Shown piece after piece: positions 1 to 6,258 of a stretch of DNA of 6,258 nucleotides. The translations under genes and the position numbers were made by a program. The DNA is from Candidatus Krumholzibacteriota bacterium. Lineage in GTDB: Bacteria; Krumholzibacteriota; Krumholzibacteriia; Krumholzibacteriales; Krumholzibacteriaceae. Within the stretch, counting starts at the first letter, position 1; every line of letters starts with the position of its first letter. Location of the stretch: contig JAFGCX010000022.1 in assembly GCA_016932415.1 (NCBI GenBank), positions 1 through 6,258 on the forward strand, written 5' to 3'. Under the pieces are notes generated by a model. The model saw nothing but the letters and a program-made list of their open reading frames with translations, had not been told where the DNA came from and searched no databases.

Positions 1-5
1 AATAT

Positions 6-79
6 GCGCCCATAGCTCAACTGGATAGAGCGTCTGGCTACGGACCAGGAGGTTGGGGGTTCGAATCCTCCTGGGCGTA
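6..79 (+). tRNA. tRNA-Arg, anticodon ACG
   Basis: Complete cloverleaf of 74 bases. The acceptor stem is 6-12 with 72-78. The D stem is 15-18 with 28-31. The anticodon stem is 33-37 with 45-49 around the loop CTACGGA, which puts ACG at 40-42. The variable loop has 5 bases, the T stem is 55-59 with 67-71, and the T loop TTCGAAT is standard. Position 79 (A) is the discriminator base, as in other bacterial arginine tRNAs of this type. The 3' CCA is not encoded: the next bases are TTTTT. The first acceptor pair is a G-U wobble (6 with 78), slightly unusual. A34 must be deaminated to inosine by TadA to read CGU, CGC and CGA; a tadA gene lies at the other end of the window. Any promoter lies upstream of the window. 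Confidence 0.96.
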
Positions 80-251
80 TTTTTCCTTTTCTTCCGATCG
101 TACTTCCGGCAGGAAGGCCCGGTGAGGTCCCGAATCCGGGGGACGCGCTGTATCGGTTTATTTTATAACGGATTACGATCCTGGCGCAAGGCCAGTCATT
201 TGTTTTTTCCCCTGTCAAAAACCGCATGGAAGCTGATTTTATTGGCTTGAC

Positions 252-271
252 TTAATCTAATTAAAGATTAA
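252..271. repeat. AT-rich inverted repeat, possible operator
   Basis: A perfect 7-bp inverted repeat, TTAATCT and AGATTAA, separated by 6 bases (AATTAA). It begins at the end of a TTGACT hexamer (247-252) and lies about 26 bp upstream of the -35 box of the predicted porC promoter. The symmetry and 13-bp centre-to-centre spacing resemble a binding site for a dimeric helix-turn-helix regulator. AT-rich DNA gives such repeats by chance fairly often, and no second copy is visible in the window, so the regulatory role is an inference. Confidence 0.4.
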
Positions 272-296
272 ATTATAAGAGATAACAAAATTGCGC

Positions 297-324
297 TTGA
301 CCTTTTGACATCTTTCAATATACT
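297..324 (+). promoter_or_regulatory. Predicted sigma-70-type promoter of the por operon
   Basis: TTGACC (297-302, 5 of 6 matches to the -35 consensus) and TATACT (319-324, 5 of 6 matches to the -10 consensus) are separated by 16 bp. Transcription would begin near 331, giving a leader of about 100 bases before porC. A perfect TTGACA at 305-310 has no acceptable -10 at the right distance, so the TTGACC pairing is preferred. A weaker upstream alternative is TTGACT at 247-252 with an A/T-rich -10 near 269-278. The consensus is that of Escherichia coli and may differ in detail in this organism. Confidence 0.6.
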
Positions 325-329
325 GTGCC

Positions 330-391
330 AATGGGTCTTTTTCGTGCGCCAGACCCGTTATTGTCAGTATTGAACGGTATCATTTTTTTTT
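330..391 (+). promoter_or_regulatory. porC leader: hairpin followed by a T9 tract
   Basis: Immediately at the predicted transcript start, 330-338 (AATGGGTCT) can pair with 351-359 (AGACCCGTT). This gives 9 bp including one G-U pair, with a 12-base loop. Nine T residues follow at 383-391, 23 bases after the stem, which is too far for a standard terminator. A 5-base complement (TGTCA at 362-366, TGACA at 401-405) brackets the T tract. The arrangement could be a 5' stabilising hairpin or part of a leader with alternative folds. No riboswitch class is recognisable and no leader peptide is obvious. Confidence 0.35.
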
Positions 392-428
392 AAGATCAGA
401 TGACATAACTGCCAGAAAGGGACAGGGT

Positions 429-983
429 ATGATCGAAATCAGGACCCATGGCCGGGGCGGCCAGGGAGCTGTGATCGCTTCCGAGATAATCGCGGACGCG
501 TTTTTTCATGAAGGTAAATTCGTTCAGGCTTTTCCCGCTTTCGGCGTGGAACGGCGCGGAGCTCCGGTTATGGCCTTCACCCGCGTTTCAGATTCCCTGA
601 TAAGGGAAAGATGCCAGATATACCAGCCCGACCATCTTGTCGTCCTCGACAGAGTCCTTATCGAGACGGTGAATATAACCGAAGGCCTGAAAGAGGGCGG
701 ATGGATAATAATCAACACCAATGACACGGTAGAAAAATCAGAATTGACTGAAAAGTTCCATGTCGCGACCGTCGACGCGAACAGGATCGCCCTCAGACAC
801 AGGCTCGGATCGCGGGCTACGCCGATCGTAAATACATCGATCGTAGGCGCTTTTGCCGGTGCTACGGGGCTTGTAGGCATAAAGGCTGTCAAGGAAGCGA
901 TCGACGGGTTTGTCCCGATCAAGAAGGAAGCCAACATGCAGGCGGCTGAGGATGCCTGCAACGGAGTCAAGATTATTTCCTGA
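429..983 (+). CDS. porC: 2-oxoacid (probably pyruvate):ferredoxin oxidoreductase, gamma subunit
   Basis: 184 residues, the usual length for a stand-alone gamma subunit. The N-terminal glycine-rich motif GRGGQGAV (residues 8-15) and the segment FPAFGVERRGAPV (35-47) are hallmarks of the POR gamma domain, which packs on the alpha/beta thiamine diphosphate core and contributes to CoA-dependent oxidative decarboxylation of 2-oxoacids in the cytoplasm. The start is supported by GAAAGGGA at 415-422, leaving about 7 bases to the ATG. It is the first gene of an operon and is followed after 84 bases by the fused flavoprotein/ferredoxin gene, then porA and porB, matching the classical gamma-delta-alpha-beta order. 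The family assignment is firm. Gamma sequence alone does not separate pyruvate enzymes from those for branched-chain or aryl 2-oxoacids. Confidence 0.93.
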   Translation: MIEIRTHGRGGQGAVIASEIIADAFFHEGKFVQAFPAFGVERRGAPVMAFTRVSDSLIRERCQIYQPDHLVVLDRVLIETVNITEGLKEGGWIIINTNDTVEKSELTEKFHVATVDANRIALRHRLGSRATPIVNTSIVGAFAGATGLVGIKAVKEAIDGFVPIKKEANMQAAEDACNGVKIIS

Positions 984-1067
984 TAGGTGATACCGGCGGG
1001 AAGGTGCCGGACGCGGGAGTGGAGGCTGATAGCCTTAAAAGCGTTCAATCAGGAGGCTGGAGGATAA
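984..1067 (+). other. Intercistronic gap with two small hairpins and a possible 26-codon frame
   Basis: The only sizeable gap inside the por operon. CCGGC (993-997) can pair with GCCGG (1006-1010). AGGCT (1023-1027) can pair with AGCCT (1031-1035) across a GAT loop. Neither has a T run, so they are not terminators; they could affect mRNA processing or stability. A GTG at 987 opens a 26-codon frame ending in TAA at 1065-1067, directly abutting the next ATG. It has no clear Shine-Dalgarno sequence and no recognisable product, so I do not call it a gene. Confidence 0.4.
1051..1064 (+). promoter_or_regulatory. Double Shine-Dalgarno before the fused flavoprotein gene
   Basis: AGGAGG at 1051-1056 lies 11 bases before the ATG at 1068, and GGAGGA at 1059-1064 lies only 3 bases before it. 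One is longer and the other shorter than the usual 5-9 base spacing, but together they mark 1068 as the start. An in-frame TAA at 1065-1067 prevents any start further upstream. Confidence 0.65.
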
Positions 1068-2747
1068 ATGGTCGAAAAGGTGGAATTTAAAACGTACAGG
1101 GAAATGCCGATCCGCCCGATGACGGTTACAGATATGCTCTGGAACCGTACTGGCTCATGGCGGAATGTCCGTCCCTACTACGATTACAAGACTTCTCCGT
1201 GCAAGGCGGGATGCCCGACTGGTGAGAATATCCAGCGATATATCTATCTGGTGACGGAGAATGACTACGAAAACGCGTGGAAGACTATAATCGATTCCAA
1301 CCCGATGCCTGCCGTGACCGGCAGGGTCTGTTTTCATCCGTGCATGGCGAACTGTACTCGGAGGGATTTTGACGAATCGGTGAATATCAACGCGATAGAA
1401 CGGTCTCTGGGAGACAAAGGGCTTGAAAATCCTCAGTGGATGAGCAGATCGAAAGCGACGAAGAATGAGAAGGTCGCTGTCGTCGGGAGTGGCCCAGCCG
1501 GCCTGTCATGCGCTTTTTATCTCGCCAGGCAGGGATATCCGGTCACTCTATTCGAGATGGAGAAAGCTCTCGGCGGGATACTCCGCTGGGGGATCCCCGA
1601 GTTCAGGCTCCCGAACGATACTCTCGACAAGGTCATAAGCGCGATAGTCGAATCAGGTCCGATCAAGGTCAGGACCGGGATAGAAGTCGGTCGGGATCCA
1701 GGCATCGAGGAGATCGAGAGCGAATACGACGCGGTATTTCTCGGTCTCGGACTTACACGCAGCCGCGAGATCGGGATCGACAATGAGGATTGCAAGGGAG
1801 TCGAACCTGGACTCGAATTTCTAAAAAGGGTGAACAGTGGTGAAAAGGTAGATCCGGGTAAAAAAGTAGCTGTCATAGGAGGCGGAAATACTGCGATGGA
1901 TGTCGCCAGGTCGGCGATAAGGTGTGGAAGCGATGTAACGGTATTTTACAGAAGAACGATGGCGGAGATGCCTGCTATAAGGGAAGAAATAGAAGAAGCG
2001 GAGAAGGAAGGGGTAAAATTCCATTTCCTCTGCGCTCCGAAAGAACTGGTGGTAAAGGGAAAGAGACTCTCAAGTGTCGTATTCCAGAAGATGGAACTGG
2101 GAGAGCCTGACGATTCGGGCCGGAGGCGTCCGGTCCCGGTCGAGGGAGAGACCTTCAGCGTTGAGGTCGACAGCCTGTTTCCCGCTATCGGCGAGCAGGC
2201 CGATCTCGATCCGTTCAGCGGCCACCTGGAGACGGAATGGGATCTTGTCAGCGCAAAAGGTGATTTCGGAGAAACAAGCAATGAGAAGATCTTCGCCGGA
2301 GGAGATATTGTCACAGGCGCGGCCAGCGTCGTAGAGGCGATAGCCGCCGGACGCAAGGCGGCAGAGAGGATCGGACGATTCCTTTCGGGCGAGGAAGAAC
2401 CGATAATGACTCCTCCCAATGTCGTGGGGATCGATGATATGAATACGGCGTATTTCTCACACGTGAAACAGAACAGGGTGCCGACGATCGCCGCAGAACA
2501 GATAAAGGGGACGTTCAGGGAGATCAAAACGGGATTCACCGAAGAGCTGCTTCATAATGAAGCTGACCGCTGTTTCTCCTGCGGAGTCTGCAACTACTGC
2601 GACAACTGCTGGATCTTTTGCCCCGACGTCGCGATAAAACGCGGCAAGGATGAATATGAGATCGATTATGATTATTGCAAAGGCTGCCTTGTTTGCGTTG
2701 AGGAATGCCCTCGCAGCGCCTTTTCAACGCGGGAGGAGGGAAAATGA
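1068..2747 (+). CDS. GltD-type FAD/NAD(P) oxidoreductase fused to a PorD-like ferredoxin (electron-transfer subunit of a 2-oxoacid oxidoreductase)
   Basis: 559 residues with three parts. Residues about 40-125 form a GltD/DPD-like N-terminal Fe-S domain with Cys 45, 49, 88, 92 and 96. Residues about 134-440 form the two-dinucleotide-fold flavoprotein: an FAD motif GSGPAG (140-145), an NAD(P) motif GGGNTAMD (271-278) followed by Arg295-Arg296 after the second strand, which in GltD favours NADPH, and a second FAD motif AGGDIVTGAAS (410-420). Residues about 495-555 form a 2[4Fe-4S] ferredoxin: C508-x2-C511-x2-C514-x3-C518-P and C537-x2-C540-x2-C543-x3-C547-P. An extra CxxC (502, 505) lies just ahead. 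The gene occupies the porD position between gamma and alpha. It should carry electrons between the PorB cluster and NAD(P)(H) in the cytoplasm. The N-terminal CxxC of canonical GltD/DPD is missing. This is not a glutamate synthase: no large-subunit gene is nearby. Domain calls are firm; direct NAD(P) coupling and NADP preference are inferences. Confidence 0.9.
   Translation: MVEKVEFKTYREMPIRPMTVTDMLWNRTGSWRNVRPYYDYKTSPCKAGCPTGENIQRYIYLVTENDYENAWKTIIDSNPMPAVTGRVCFHPCMANCTRRDFDESVNINAIERSLGDKGLENPQWMSRSKATKNEKVAVVGSGPAGLSCAFYLARQGYPVTLFEMEKALGGILRWGIPEFRLPNDTLDKVISAIVESGPIKVRTGIEVGRDPGIEEIESEYDAVFLGLGLTRSREIGIDNEDCKGVEPGLEFLKRVNSGEKVDPGKKVAVIGGGNTAMDVARSAIRCGSDVTVFYRRTMAEMPAIREEIEEAEKEGVKFHFLCAPKELVVKGKRLSSVVFQKMELGEPDDSGRRRPVPVEGETFSVEVDSLFPAIGEQADLDPFSGHLETEWDLVSAKGDFGETSNEKIFAGGDIVTGAASVVEAIAAGRKAAERIGRFLSGEEEPIMTPPNVVGIDDMNTAYFSHVKQNRVPTIAAEQIKGTFREIKTGFTEELLHNEADRCFSCGVCNYCDNCWIFCPDVAIKRGKDEYEIDYDYCKGCLVCVEECPRSAFSTREEGK
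2732..2740 (+). promoter_or_regulatory. Shine-Dalgarno that fixes the porA start
   Basis: GGAGGAGGG ends 3 bases before the ATG at 2744, with the GGAGG core 7 bases away. An in-frame ATG at 2705 lies deep inside the upstream gene, lacks a comparable site, and would add 13 residues absent from the family. The start at 2744 gives an ATGA overlap with the upstream stop, implying translational coupling. Confidence 0.85.
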
Positions 2748-3895
2748 AAAAGGTCATCATGGGAAATCACGCCGTCAGTTACGGCGTCAAAGCCTCTGAA
2801 GCCAAAGTGATCTCGGCTTACCCGATCACCCCTCAGACCCATGTTGTGGAACTTCTTTCAGAGATGTGCGCCAACGGCGAGATCGACGCTGAATTCATCA
2901 AGGTGGAATCGGAACATAGCGCGATGGCTGCCTGCGTGGGGGCTTCCGCGGCAGGTTCCAGGGCATTTACGGCGACCTCTTCCCAGGGGCTGCTGCTGAT
3001 GCACGAGATGCTGCACTGGGCGGTAGGGGCGAGGCTTCCGATAGTGCTGGCGAATATAAACAGGGCGGTCGGGCCTCCGTGGAGCATCTGGACCGATCAG
3101 AACGATTCGCTTTCGCAGAGGGATGTCGGATGGCTCCAGATCTATGTCGAAAGCAACCAGGAGACGCAGGATACGATCCCTCAGGCTTTCAAGATCGCCG
3201 AAGAACTCCAGATGCCGGTAATGATAGTGATGGACGCCTTTTTCCTTTCTCATACTTACGAGATAGTCGATCTCTTCGACAAGGAGCAGGTAAGAAAATT
3301 CCTTCCTCCCTATGAACCGGAGATAAAGATAGACGTGAACGATCCTCATTCGTTCGGCAATCTGGCCGGTCCGGACATGTACATGGAACTGAGGTACATG
3401 ATCCAGGAAGCGATGGAAAAGAGCATCGATGTGATCAAGAGGGTCGACAGGGAATTCGAGGAGATATTCGGCCGCAAGTACGGGCTTGTCGAAGCATACC
3501 GGTGCGAAGACGCAGAGACGATCCTTGTCACTTCCGGTACCGTCGCCTCGACGACGAGAGCCGTCATCGACGAGATGAGGGATGAAGGTATCAAAATAGG
3601 AGCGTTGAAGATACGCGTCTTCAGACCATTCCCGTTCGAAGAGGTCTTCGAAGTACTTTCAAAGACTGAAAAAGTCGCCGTGATCGACAGGAATATATCA
3701 TTCGGCGGACACGGGATCTTTTTCCAGGAGATAAAGAGCGCGCTATACGGCAGGACTGACGTTCCGATCACCGGATATATAGCGGGACTCGGGGGGCGTG
3801 ATATCACACCGGAGGTCATAAGAGAGATCGCCGACAAGGCGCTGACCGACAAGAAACCGGAAAGATATATCAACTGGATTGGAGTGAAGAGATGA
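2744..3895 (+). CDS. porA: 2-oxoacid (probably pyruvate):ferredoxin oxidoreductase, alpha subunit
   Basis: 383 residues from the ATG at 2744, a normal length for a separate alpha subunit. Residues 26-32, YPITPQT, are the signature of the pyrimidine-binding domain. Glu55 and Glu57 in the KVESEHSAM segment are in the region expected for the glutamate that activates thiamine diphosphate. Thr29 and Arg107 appear, by eye, to match the Thr31 and Arg114 that bind pyruvate in the Desulfovibrio africanus enzyme. The segment GPPWSIWTDQNDS (110-122) followed by QRDVGW resembles pyruvate-type alpha subunits more than the GPSTGLPT form of 2-oxoglutarate and branched-chain enzymes. The C-terminal part holds DRNISFGGHG (315-324) and GLGGRD (348-353), typical of this family. 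The gene overlaps its neighbours on both sides by ATGA, so stoichiometric translation with the fusion protein and PorB is likely. Pyruvate is the favoured substrate, but phenylglyoxylate or related acids are not excluded. Confidence 0.92.
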   Translation: MKKVIMGNHAVSYGVKASEAKVISAYPITPQTHVVELLSEMCANGEIDAEFIKVESEHSAMAACVGASAAGSRAFTATSSQGLLLMHEMLHWAVGARLPIVLANINRAVGPPWSIWTDQNDSLSQRDVGWLQIYVESNQETQDTIPQAFKIAEELQMPVMIVMDAFFLSHTYEIVDLFDKEQVRKFLPPYEPEIKIDVNDPHSFGNLAGPDMYMELRYMIQEAMEKSIDVIKRVDREFEEIFGRKYGLVEAYRCEDAETILVTSGTVASTTRAVIDEMRDEGIKIGALKIRVFRPFPFEEVFEVLSKTEKVAVIDRNISFGGHGIFFQEIKSALYGRTDVPITGYIAGLGGRDITPEVIREIADKALTDKKPERYINWIGVKR

Positions 3896-4797
3896 AACAG
3901 GCAAGTATTCCAATGGAAGAGTATATGGGATCCGGTCATCTTGCCTGCCAGGGGTGCGGAGCTACCCAGGCGATGCGTTTTGCGCTCAAGGCTCTTGGAC
4001 CGCAAACGGCCCTGGTCATTCCGGCATGCTGCTGGGCAGTCATAGATGGCTCTTTCCCACATTCATGTATTCAGCAGCCGATTTTCCATACCGCTTTCGA
4101 GACAGCCGCCGTCGTGGCTTCCGGAATCAAGGCCGGTCTGAAGATGCGCGGCGACACGGAAACGACAGTGATGGCCTGGGCGGGAGATGGCGGGACGTTT
4201 GATATAGGTCTGCAGGCCCTTTCGGGCGCGGCGGAGAGGAATGACGATATCATATATGTCTGCTATGACAATGAGGCGTATATGAATACAGGGATCCAGA
4301 GAAGCTCGTCGACTCCGGTGGGAGCATGGACGACGACTACGCCTGTGACGAGCTACAAAACGAGGCCGAAGAAAAACATGATCGATATCATGGCGGCTCA
4401 TGCCATACCTTATATCGCGACAGCTTCGACGGCTTATCCGCATGATTTCATGAGGAAAGTCGCCAAAGCCAAGGAGATAAAGGGTACGAAATATATCCAG
4501 ATCTTTGCTCCCTGTCCGACAGGGTGGAAACTCTCCCCGGAGCTCTCGGTAAAGATGGCGAGGCTGGCCGTCACATCGAAGGTATATCCGATAGTAGAGA
4601 TAACCGAGAACGGCCAGAAACTCGATGTATGGAAAGATTTCGAACCGACTTCGGTACGTGACTATATGAAACCTCAGGGAAGATTCCGTCACCTGACCGA
4701 CGCGGAGCTCGAGGGGATCGAAAAGGAAGTCGAAGCCAACTGGCAGAGGTTGCTGGCCAAGGAAAAGTTGCTTGGTTCGATACCGGGACTTGGTTGA
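3892..4797 (+). CDS. porB: 2-oxoacid (probably pyruvate):ferredoxin oxidoreductase, beta subunit
   Basis: 301 residues, typical for PorB. The thiamine diphosphate/Mg motif starts with GDGGTFDIG (98-106) and ends with the DN pair at 126-127 in YDNEAYMNTG, the GDG-x(25-30)-N pattern. Four candidate ligands for the proximal [4Fe-4S] cluster are visible: Cys19 and Cys22 in ACQGCG, Cys46 or Cys47 in PACCW, and Cys208 in APCPTGW. The subunit binds the cofactor pyrophosphate and passes electrons from the hydroxyethyl intermediate to the ferredoxin subunit, here the C-terminal domain of the upstream fusion. The start at 3892 overlaps the porA stop by ATGA, and GGAG at 3881-3884 gives a 7-base spacing. 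It is the last gene of the operon: a strong terminator follows 28 bases after the stop. All recognisable catalytic elements are intact. Confidence 0.94.
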   Translation: MKQASIPMEEYMGSGHLACQGCGATQAMRFALKALGPQTALVIPACCWAVIDGSFPHSCIQQPIFHTAFETAAVVASGIKAGLKMRGDTETTVMAWAGDGGTFDIGLQALSGAAERNDDIIYVCYDNEAYMNTGIQRSSSTPVGAWTTTTPVTSYKTRPKKNMIDIMAAHAIPYIATASTAYPHDFMRKVAKAKEIKGTKYIQIFAPCPTGWKLSPELSVKMARLAVTSKVYPIVEITENGQKLDVWKDFEPTSVRDYMKPQGRFRHLTDAELEGIEKEVEANWQRLLAKEKLLGSIPGLG

Positions 4798-4825
4798 TCC
4801 GGCTCCATGAACTCTGATGAACGAC

Positions 4826-4851
4826 GCCCGGCCGAGTCGCCGGGCTTTTTT
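4826..4851 (+). terminator. Rho-independent terminator of the por operon
   Basis: A 7-bp all-GC stem (GCCCGGC at 4826-4832 with GCCGGGC at 4839-4845) closes a 6-base loop CGAGTC and is followed at once by six T residues (4846-4851). It lies 28 bases after the porB stop. There is no A run on the 5' side, so it acts only for + strand transcription and separates the por operon from the lipoprotein-tadA unit. Confidence 0.94.
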
Positions 4852-4925
4852 ATCGGCGGAAAGAACGTCAAAATTTAGAAAACCGGCCAATACAGGGTCC
4901 GTTAACTGATTAGCTTTATATCGTG

Positions 4926-4955
4926 TTGACAATGGCCGGCCGGCATTGTTATTGT
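4926..4955 (+). promoter_or_regulatory. Predicted promoter of the lipoprotein-tadA unit
   Basis: A perfect TTGACA (-35, 4926-4931) is followed after 18 bp by TATTGT (4950-4955, 4 of 6 matches to the -10). Transcription would start near 4962, about 60 bases before the lipoprotein ATG. It lies downstream of the por terminator, where a new promoter is needed. The weak -10 suggests activator dependence or modest strength. The spacer carries an inverted repeat, listed separately. Confidence 0.45.
4927..4951. repeat. Inverted repeat overlapping the promoter, possible operator
   Basis: TGACAATG (4927-4934) and CATTGTTA (4944-4951) form 8-bp arms (6 bp perfect plus a G-U and an outer pair) around 9 GC-rich bases that include the palindrome GGCCGGCC (4934-4941). 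The repeat covers the -35 box and the whole spacer and touches the -10, the position expected for a repressor site. It could also form a hairpin if transcribed from further upstream. No matching copy is seen elsewhere in the window. Confidence 0.4.
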
Positions 4956-5021
4956 TCCTTGAAAGAGAATTGATGATCAAATGCGCAGCCCATTACCCTT
5001 AAGGGCAGGAAGGGAGAGGTT

Positions 5022-5735
5022 ATGAAAAGATTTCCGGCTTATATCGCTTTGCTGGCGCTTGTGGCCTTTGCCGCGTGTAAATCCCAGCATCCTTCCGTGA
5101 TAAAAGCGGAACCTGATTTTGATTCTGGAAAAATACAATCGATACTTGTCCTGCCCGTGGTGAGCTCGGTGACTCGCGGGGAAGACCCCGATCGCGAGTC
5201 TGAAAGAATAACAAACCGGGTCCTCTGGGAACATGTTACAGAATTGGACGATTTTACATTCCAGTCGCCAGAGACGTTCAAAATAAAGATATATGCCGAG
5301 AATCTCGGTGACAGGATCGGTGAGTTCAATGACAAATGGGCGACTTCGCACACCGCCGACGTAGATTTCCTTAACGCTCTTTCGACTCTTAACGTGGATC
5401 TTATCATGATTCCGCATGTCTACCTCTGGCTTAAGGATGAAGCTGATTACCGGGAGGAAGGCTCATCTTCGGCGACACAGGTAGGCCTGACTGTCAGCCT
5501 GGTGGATCCGGCGACCGGCCGCATCATGTGGGAATCGACAGATGAGAACACAAAAGAGTCGGTCAGGACGGAAGGAAACAGGGTGCAAGCGATGTCAGGC
5601 GGGATCAACCGCAGGATATCGGGAACGTCGATGTCAGGAAAAGATATCTATGCCGCGCCTCCTTTCGAGGATGTTGTCGTTCTGGTAGTATCGGCGATCA
5701 TCGACGCGATTCCGAAGAAGGTGACGGGCTTGTAA
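5022..5735 (+). CDS. Predicted lipoprotein of unknown function
   Basis: 237 residues. The N-terminus is a lipoprotein signal: Lys2-Arg3, a hydrophobic stretch 4-18 rich in Ala and Leu, then FAAC with Cys19 as the lipidated residue. Phe at -3 is less common than Leu or Val but tolerated. Lys20 is not a retention signal, so an outer-membrane, periplasm-facing location is likely. The mature part begins with a strand-like SILVLPVVSS (40-49), and has a further strand NVDLIMIPHVYLWL (124-137) and VGLTVSLVDPATGRIMW (154-170). This alternation, and the phrase VDPATGRIMWES, resembles small CsgG/TolB-N-like or GNA1162-like lipoproteins, but similarity is too weak by eye to assign a family. Residues about 186-205 are Gly/Ser/Arg-rich. 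The ribosome binding site AGGGAG (5011-5016) supports the start. tadA begins 2 bases after the stop. Function unknown. Confidence 0.85.
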   Translation: MKRFPAYIALLALVAFAACKSQHPSVIKAEPDFDSGKIQSILVLPVVSSVTRGEDPDRESERITNRVLWEHVTELDDFTFQSPETFKIKIYAENLGDRIGEFNDKWATSHTADVDFLNALSTLNVDLIMIPHVYLWLKDEADYREEGSSSATQVGLTVSLVDPATGRIMWESTDENTKESVRTEGNRVQAMSGGINRRISGTSMSGKDIYAAPPFEDVVVLVVSAIIDAIPKKVTGL

Positions 5736-5737
5736 TA

Positions 5738-6193
5738 ATGGATGAAAGGATGATGGGGGAGGCTCTCCTTGAAGCAAGGAAGGCTCTTGGAGAAGGGGAA
5801 GTGCCCGTCGGTGCTGTCATCGTCAGAGATGGGAAGATAATCGGGCGGGGGCATAACGAGGTGGAGGGGCGTTCACTCGCTTCAGCCCACGCCGAGATGC
5901 TCGCGATAGAGGATGCTGCCGCCACCATCGGCGACTGGCGTCTTGATTCATCATCGATATATGTCACCGTGGAGCCATGCCATATGTGCCTTGGGGCTCT
6001 TTTTCTTTCACGGGTGGACAGAGTCGTTTATGGGACGGCCCAGCCGCGGAGCGGAGCATGCGGCTCTGTCGGTAATCTGCATGAGTCAGAGTTGTACGGA
6101 CACAGGATCGAAGTCATTGGCGGAATACTTCAGGAAGAATCTCTTTTGCTTCTTCAGAAGTTTTTCGCTACATTAAGGGCTGAAGAAAAATAG
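5738..6193 (+). CDS. tadA: tRNA-specific adenosine deaminase (A34 to inosine)
   Basis: 151 residues, the usual size for bacterial TadA. The zinc-dependent cytidine/adenosine deaminase motifs are intact: His51-Ala-Glu53 supplies a zinc ligand and the proton-shuttling glutamate, and Pro80-Cys81-His-Met-Cys84 supplies the other two ligands. GEVPVGAVIV (20-29), Asn40, and RVDRVVYGTAQPRSGACGS (92-110) are typical of TadA rather than of free-base deaminases. The enzyme converts the wobble A of tRNA-Arg(ACG) to inosine; such a tRNA gene is at the start of this window. The start at 5738 is 2 bases after the lipoprotein stop, with only a weak GGG at 5726-5728 as ribosome binding site, so translation is probably coupled. 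Later Met codons at 5750 and 5753 lack proper spacing from any Shine-Dalgarno and are less likely. A tRNA-Ser gene follows after 1 base. Confidence 0.96.
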   Translation: MDERMMGEALLEARKALGEGEVPVGAVIVRDGKIIGRGHNEVEGRSLASAHAEMLAIEDAAATIGDWRLDSSSIYVTVEPCHMCLGALFLSRVDRVVYGTAQPRSGACGSVGNLHESELYGHRIEVIGGILQEESLLLLQKFFATLRAEEK

Positions 6194-6194
6194 C

Positions 6195-6258
6195 GGAGAG
6201 ATGCGAGAGCTGGCTTAATCGGCACGATTGGAAATCGTGTGTGGGGGTGACTCCACCG
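6195..6258 (+). tRNA. tRNA-Ser, anticodon GGA (3' part beyond the window)
   Basis: The 5' acceptor strand is GGAGAGA (6195-6201), then TG. The 3-bp D stem is CGA/TCG (6204-6206 with 6219-6221). The anticodon stem is CACGA/TCGTG (6223-6227 with 6235-6239), around TTGGAAA with GGA at 6230-6232, which reads UCC and UCU. A long class II variable arm follows: GTGGGG (6241-6246) pairs with CTCCAC (6251-6256) using one G-U pair. The T arm and acceptor 3' strand are cut off by the window end. The gene begins 1 base after the tadA stop and has no room for its own promoter except inside tadA, so it is probably processed from the tadA transcript. Confidence 0.9.

Follow-up and report, generated by a model that had tools for sequence, protein, structure and literature searches.

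A probable CoA-acylating 2-oxoacid:NADP+ oxidoreductase whose delta subunit appears to be a PorD interrupted by a permuted flavin module

The closest described relatives of the locus considered here include PorABCD, the archaeal-type pyruvate/2-oxoisovalerate:ferredoxin oxidoreductase (structure 9bt4), a member of the 2-oxoacid:ferredoxin oxidoreductases (OFORs). Nicotinamide-linked OFORs are also known. The phenylglyoxylate:NAD+ oxidoreductase PadEFGHI of Azoarcus evansii has gamma, alpha and beta homologues; the functionally similar eukaryotic pyruvate:NADP+ oxidoreductase (Euglena, Cryptosporidium) is a single chain in which pyruvate:ferredoxin oxidoreductase (PFOR) is fused to an NADP flavin module, this module being of the cytochrome P450 reductase type and unrelated to GltD. 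We analyzed 6258 nucleotides of DNA from a Candidatus Krumholzibacteriota bacterium (contig JAFGCX010000022.1, positions 1 to 6258; the whole stretch is called the window), which carry a four-gene operon coding for gamma, a flavoprotein, alpha and beta. Gamma, alpha, beta and both ends of the flavoprotein are homologous to PorABCD subunits, and the flavoprotein fills the delta slot of the same gamma-delta-alpha-beta order. We propose that the four products probably form one complex, which would act as a CoA-acylating 2-oxoacid:NADP+ oxidoreductase in the oxidative direction.

The flavoprotein starts with the arm NRTGSWRNVRPYYD (TG-x-W-R..RP) and finishes with a PorD-type 2[4Fe-4S] domain. Standalone PorDs (86–131 aa) were seen in six control loci drawn from the same phylum and others (L220, L224, L226, L227, L230, L234); their arm, TG-x-W-R/K ... 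P, stands just ahead of the first cluster, and the same arm is found in PDB chain 9bt4_G and in the delta chain of oxalate oxidoreductase (5c4i_B). In the window both parts of PorD are present in this order, but they lie ∼465 residues apart. The C-terminal domain is PorD-specific, as it matches NF040684 and 9bt4_G, the delta chain of a Methanosarcina acetivorans-type PFOR (Table 1); its NF040684 score is below the full-length cut-off of 120 bits, as expected for half a PorD.

All 43 POR-linked flavoproteins contain the TGxW motif, 36 of them in the strict form TGxWR; it was absent from all 15 flavoproteins of NifJ-linked, Dsr-linked or Stn type. In the window's protein, the arm joined in silico to the ferredoxin domain added 21.0 bits to the PorD profile score (best of 20 shuffles, 6.8). 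The mean gain was 21.3 bits for 38 members with gamma-flavoprotein-alpha-beta order (best of 20 shuffles, 7.4), 11.1 bits for NifJ types (shuffles, 8.7) and 2.3 bits for Dsr types (shuffles, 6.1). The N-terminal PorD arm, the C-terminal PorD clusters and the gain in profile score together indicate that the flavin module sits within PorD as an insertion; judged from the sequences, PorD is split by a circularly permuted GltD/NfnL module. The original prediction had PorD replaced by a flavoprotein. The slot was correctly named, since standalone PorD in the control loci sits directly 5′ of alpha and, where visible, 3′ of gamma; the replacement did not hold, as both PorD ends are retained around the flavin module. 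One genome (G011) has a PorD-type operon (L234) as well as a flavoprotein-type operon (L022) and offers a natural comparison.

One could suppose that the flavoprotein works on its own as an NADPH oxidoreductase and shares no more than a transcript with the POR genes; its NF009410 relatives do partner DsrAB and adjoin NifJ. The PorD arm, however, is kept in POR-linked forms alone, and neither a separate PorD nor a small ferredoxin ORF (open reading frame) was found in the flavoprotein loci; we consider this explanation hardly credible.

Pfam recognized Fer4_20, Pyr_redox_2 and Fer4 domains in the flavoprotein, and residues 26–553 scored above the curated cut-off of the NF009410 (PRK12771) subfamily. 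Residues 41–505 correspond to a GltD/NfnB-type unit, with the Fer4_20 domain, FAD/NAD Rossmann folds, cluster cysteines and YRR motif of an NADP(H) module. The domains named earlier, GltD-like with a C-terminal 2[4Fe-4S] ferredoxin, are there; the description was incomplete, as an N-terminal PorD arm and cluster-binding domain are present too. NfnL and chain A of dihydropyrimidine dehydrogenase (DPD) begin with a segment that ends in RC-x2-C; in the window's flavoprotein this segment comes after the FAD/NADP domains. A sequence search matched residues 7–47 of 5jca_L to query columns 467–507, pointing to a circular permutation. The AlphaFold2 model of the flavoprotein had a predicted local distance difference test score (pLDDT) of 90.4 and a predicted template modeling score (pTM) of 0.88; with 18 close sequences in the alignment the ferredoxin domain stayed unresolved, and with 64 sequences it was resolved. 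With VIA, residues 38–508 were superposed on the permuted chain 9bov_A (Z 51.5, root mean square deviation 1.7, 468 residues), and superposition on the unpermuted 5jca_L was limited to residues 41–441. As sequence search and predicted fold agree, the permutation is supported.

Seven cysteines of this unit, C45, C49, C88, C92, C96, C502 and C505, were invariant in 64 sequences. E111 aligns with a Glu of NfnB and, in StnC, with Lys170, a ligand of the cluster nearest the FAD (PMC10482914). From alignments with NfnB, with ligand numbering as given in PMC7596348, and with StnC, the distal cluster is predicted to be bound by C45, C96, C502 and C505, and the proximal one by C49, C88, C92 and E111. 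A DPD-based grouping of the Glu ligand with C45 was rejected in favor of the NfnB numbering of PMC7596348. The two PorD clusters would be held by C508/C511/C514/C547 and C518/C537/C540/C543, giving a predicted relay of four clusters to the FAD within one flavoprotein.

The likeness to NfnB raises the question of bifurcation, which had been suggested as possible: the FAD could split electrons between the clusters and a high-potential acceptor, or confurcate to drive carboxylation. E111 and Arg 180 do correspond to NfnB residues, and position 111 is Glu in the POR- and Dsr-type rows of the alignment and Lys in the Stn-type rows. The Arg, on the other hand, is shared with StnC, whose FAD does not bifurcate (PMC10482914). 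No second flavoprotein, Etf, NuoEF, Hdr or NfnA-like gene, no NfnA/NfnS or Hyd/StnAB-like partner as in bifurcating Nfn, and no gene for a high-potential acceptor was found in the operon or its conserved neighborhood. The suggestion thus lost its footing, and we regard a bifurcating or confurcating enzyme as quite improbable.

Regarding the nucleotide, the YRR motif (Y294-R295-R296) was invariant in one alignment of the clade (A1) and present in 63 of 64 rows of the other (A2). YRR goes with NADP(H) in characterized DsrL and NfnB, and DsrL proteins lacking it use NAD(H) (PMC7596348); because of YRR, we predict NADP rather than NAD. A single NAD(P)-linked complex, as first proposed, is still the best reading, with NADP(H) as the likely cofactor. 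A POR-linked flavoprotein of Tenderia (L081, 238–1935), adjoining a POR beta gene, has CSQ in place of YRR, and its sequence suggests that it may depend on NAD rather than NADP.

In the enzyme as we picture it, alpha and beta would bind thiamine pyrophosphate (TPP) and decarboxylate the 2-oxoacid, gamma being the third core subunit; arm and ferredoxin domain would dock the delta subunit at the usual position of PorD. Electrons would pass from TPP to the [4Fe-4S] cluster of beta, the two PorD clusters, the distal cluster, the proximal cluster, FAD and NADP+, so that acyl-CoA and NADPH would be produced in vivo with free ferredoxin bypassed.

Alternatively, the operon could code for an ordinary ferredoxin-linked POR or VOR (2-oxoisovalerate:ferredoxin oxidoreductase), its delta subunit doubling as a ferredoxin:NADP+ reductase and its PorD clusters serving as a junction to free ferredoxin or FAD. 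The PorD domain indeed keeps both clusters in full, and the host genome (3.1 Mb, 95% complete) encodes a NifJ-type PFOR, a 2-oxoglutarate-type KorAB, an indolepyruvate enzyme and one unassigned OFOR; with other ferredoxin-linked OFORs there, a ferredoxin pool exists. Still, a continuous chain of clusters in one subunit is most simply read as a direct route to the FAD, and a ferredoxin gene never accompanies the operon in its conserved neighborhood or in the flavoprotein loci. We find this alternative unlikely.

As to direction, 2-oxoacid oxidation by NADP+ is strongly downhill, and the reverse is implausible without bifurcation. Reverse operation as an NADPH-driven carboxylating 2-oxoacid synthase had also been put forward, and it is established knowledge that POR enzymes are reversible in principle. 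It is equally established that carboxylation of acyl-CoA needs about −500 mV while NADPH gives about −320 to −370 mV, a deficit of ∼+30 to +35 kJ/mol without bifurcation; reductive carboxylation is thermodynamically unlikely, and we hold it to be very improbable as the role of the operon.

The catalytic core has the composition of PorABC: POR_N and PFOR_II domains in alpha, a TPP domain in beta and a POR domain in gamma. The beta motifs HLACQGC, PACC and FAPCP align with 9bt4_C and contain the four proximal-cluster cysteines; YPITPQT, NRAV and YMNTG align with motifs of the Desulfovibrio africanus PFOR, conserving the pyruvate-binding Thr, Arg and Asn. Core scores were far from models of 2-oxoglutarate:ferredoxin oxidoreductase. 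Family scores are divided between pyruvate and a branched-chain 2-oxoacid, either of which may be the substrate.

Several observations weigh against the proposed NADP-linked enzyme. The substrate models disagree: the best model for alpha is PorA_Arch, under its cut-off (523.6 versus 550), and beta exceeds the cut-off of the 3-methyl-2-oxobutanoate model NF008818. The NifJ-type PFOR is present in the same genome. Finally, the NF009410 family serves other partners too, and a fold alone is no proof of reaction.

The flavin subunit of the phenylglyoxylate enzyme had been named as a GltD-like relative. This comparison failed: the PadH model NF045765 did not match the window's flavoprotein (it matched two other loci of the same genome), and gamma, alpha and beta stayed far under the cut-offs of the PadE, PadG and PadI models (157.6/300, 287.1/700 and 240/700). 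By these tests the operon does not code for a phenylglyoxylate enzyme. Pad also differs in having separate PadF and PadH subunits and in using NAD, not NADP.

Within the phylum set, 22 of the 25 genomes belonging to the window's order carry a full-length fusion, and in two more (G022, G023) its C-terminal portion lies at the end of a contig. Family f8 has the fusion in 4 of its 6 genomes; other families of the set yielded none. Wherever the contig continues, gamma, alpha or beta adjoins the fusion; in G074 an assembly gap divides the locus. Outside the phylum, the gamma-flavoprotein-alpha-beta order was seen in Gemmatimonadota, Acidobacteriota, Desulfobacterota, Pseudomonadota and Electryoneota. 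The order gamma-alpha-beta-flavoprotein occurs in Desulfobacterales and in metagenome-assembled genomes labeled Deltaproteobacteria, and apparently also in Tenderia, where the contig begins within beta. Alpha adjoins the flavoprotein in all 24 best Desulfobacterota loci. The survey for the fusion beside porA/porB, proposed earlier as a check, thus shows an operon recurring in several phyla; with such conservation in relatives, it is not a chance arrangement.

Some POR operons (L226, L227, L222, L223) have NuoE-like and NuoF-like genes, named by eye, immediately downstream; in L226 and L227 the operon has gamma-PorD-alpha-beta order. The NuoEF-like pair is HydBC-like, of the bifurcating-core type. 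The arrangement apparently exists in the window's family as well (G025, G026), and these loci are another possible NAD-linked form of OFOR.

Flavoproteins of the same architecture also have partners other than PorABC. They lie directly 5′ of nifJ in Phenylobacterium zucineum, Methylovirgula, Aeromonas caviae and one genome of the window's phylum (L213), and beside dsr-like genes (recognized by eye, not by profile) as DsrL. One-piece NifJ stands directly 3′ of the flavoprotein-family gene in L206 (5941–12230), L207 (5947–12273), L209 and L213; in the plasmid records L206 and L207 a dihydroorotate-dehydrogenase-like gene comes next. In the flavoprotein tree, clades track partner type: DsrL groups with the Desulfobacterales POR type (99/96), and the NifJ type with the Tenderia POR type (99/93). 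A single POR clade was rejected by the approximately unbiased (AU) test (p 0.017), a value that is indicative only, as the tested group was named after the first tree had been seen. The alpha tree, with long branches meeting at the outgroup, was used for local grouping only.

As NifJ and Dsr types fall within POR-linked branches, DsrL may descend from an OFOR subunit. One could speculate that the flavin-inserted PorD is ancestral to the NF009410 family, with DsrL and the NifJ-linked forms being OFOR delta subunits that lost the docking arm, and with a distal cluster held by the C-terminal hinge in all of them; we offer this tentatively, as a possible though somewhat doubtful scenario. The RCxxC hinge is common to the DsrL-type proteins L080, L033, L211 and L212. 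DsrL alignments find Ser, Thr or Arg at N-terminal ligand positions (PMC7596348), and by sequence the hinge pair may supply the true distal-cluster ligands in DsrL.

All four ORFs are open at the coordinates of Table 1 and supported by family matches. ATGA overlaps, expected at the junctions, do join flavoprotein to alpha (2744–2747) and alpha to beta (3892–3895); between gamma and the flavoprotein there is a gap of 84 bp. In the ORF list alpha begins at 2705; comparison with homologues places its start at the ATG at 2744. Terminator-like hairpins are no more numerous in the window than in shuffles, and the one after beta is well placed.

Table 1. Coordinates in the window of the operon genes, flavoprotein segments and putative terminator
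Feature	Coordinates	Strand	Evidence
Gamma subunit (PorC-like, 184 aa)	429..983	+	POR PF01558 1.5e-37; TIGR02175 202.7 bits vs cut-off 81.1
Flavoprotein delta subunit (559 aa), apparent PorD interrupted by GltD/NfnL-type FAD-NADP module	1068..2747	+	NF009410 562.9 vs 516; AlphaFold2; VIA
PorD N-terminal arm, residues 26-39	1143..1184	+	motif shared with standalone PorDs, PDB 9bt4_G, 5c4i_B
Fer4_20 cluster domain, residues 41-120 (C45, C49, C88, C92, C96)	1188..1427	+	Pfam Fer4_20 1.4e-19; five Cys invariant in 64 sequences
FAD- and NADP-binding Rossmann domains, residues 133-440	1464..2387	+	Pyr_redox_2 3.7e-29; fold match NfnL, DPD, GltD
YRR motif, residues 294-296 (2′-phosphate site, predicts NADP(H))	1947..1955	+	conserved; role from PMC7596348
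Hinge RCFSCG (C502, C505), predicted permuted ligand pair of distal [4Fe-4S] cluster	2568..2585	+	invariant in 64 sequences
PorD-type 2[4Fe-4S] domain, residues 506-557	2583..2738	+	NF040684 67.7 bits; 9bt4_G E 1.2e-9
Alpha subunit (PorA-like, 383 aa)	2744..3895	+	POR_N 6.9e-76, PFOR_II 1.2e-33; 9bt4_B 9.4e-110
Beta subunit (PorB-like, 301 aa; TPP site, proximal-cluster cysteines)	3892..4797	+	TPP_enzyme_C; NF008818 410 vs 405; 9bt4_C 5.2e-73
Terminator-like hairpin and T run 3′ of beta	4826..4855 (hairpin 4826-4845)	+	7 GC pairs, then T run

Elsewhere in the window there is a tRNA-Arg(ACG) at 5–80 and, at 5022–6193, a lipoprotein-like ORF that belongs to no known family, with tadA after it; positions 6194–6258, at the other contig end, resemble a cut tRNA-Ser, with no call by ARAGORN or Rfam. 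In relatives the lipoprotein-like ORF and tadA recur downstream, followed by dnaX, ybaB and recR, and upstream lies a cysteine desulfurase gene, often with mnmA (names partly by eye). The window's genome, to which metagenome-assembled genomes of Candidatus Krumholzibacteriia and UBP1 are closest among those with names, also encodes a StnC/NfnA-type protein (GltD plus more) in a 1238-aa open frame (G000:C6:34589-36046).

The complex was not found described in the searchable literature, which mostly excludes subscription journals, on GltD-like OFOR subunits, PRK12771 with POR COGs, Azoarcus Kor or Krumholzibacteriota metabolism. Nicotinamide-linked OFORs are already known, and the flavoprotein family is listed in a database with no function assigned; apparently undescribed in that literature are the insertion into PorD, the occurrence of a permuted hinge in a subunit of an OFOR, and how widely the operon is distributed. 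If our reading is true, a single step that bypasses ferredoxin would give anaerobes both NADPH and acyl-CoA, and flux predictions would change for several phyla whose flavoprotein is annotated just as 'NAD(P)-binding protein'. The anatomy on offer is concrete (a module within PorD, the arm as docking mark, the hinge cysteines), TGxW together with YRR would be a genomic marker for OFOR-associated flavoproteins, and the possibility that DsrL stems from an OFOR is relevant to how dissimilatory sulfur metabolism evolved.

Compared with PorABCD, then, the window's delta subunit appears to have gained an inserted FAD-NADP module and two further predicted clusters, the predicted acceptor being NADP+. 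With NfnB/NfnL, GltD and the permuted forms StnC (8oh5), Caldicellulosiruptor NfnABC (9bov) and Thermococcus sibiricus NfnABC (9n5u) it shares the fold and the FAD/NADP sites, and with the permuted forms the CxxC hinge; it differs in that its module is fused inside PorD, has Glu rather than Lys by the proximal cluster and comes without a bifurcating FMN module. DsrL, the NAD(P)H:acceptor oxidoreductase that serves the dissimilatory sulfite reductase DsrAB, has the same NF009410-type architecture with a C-terminal 2[4Fe-4S] domain, and YRR in its NADP-dependent DsrL-2 type; however, DsrL is encoded with dsrAB, and no dsr gene was found in the window. The partner of DsrL is DsrAB, and DsrL lacks the PorD arm.

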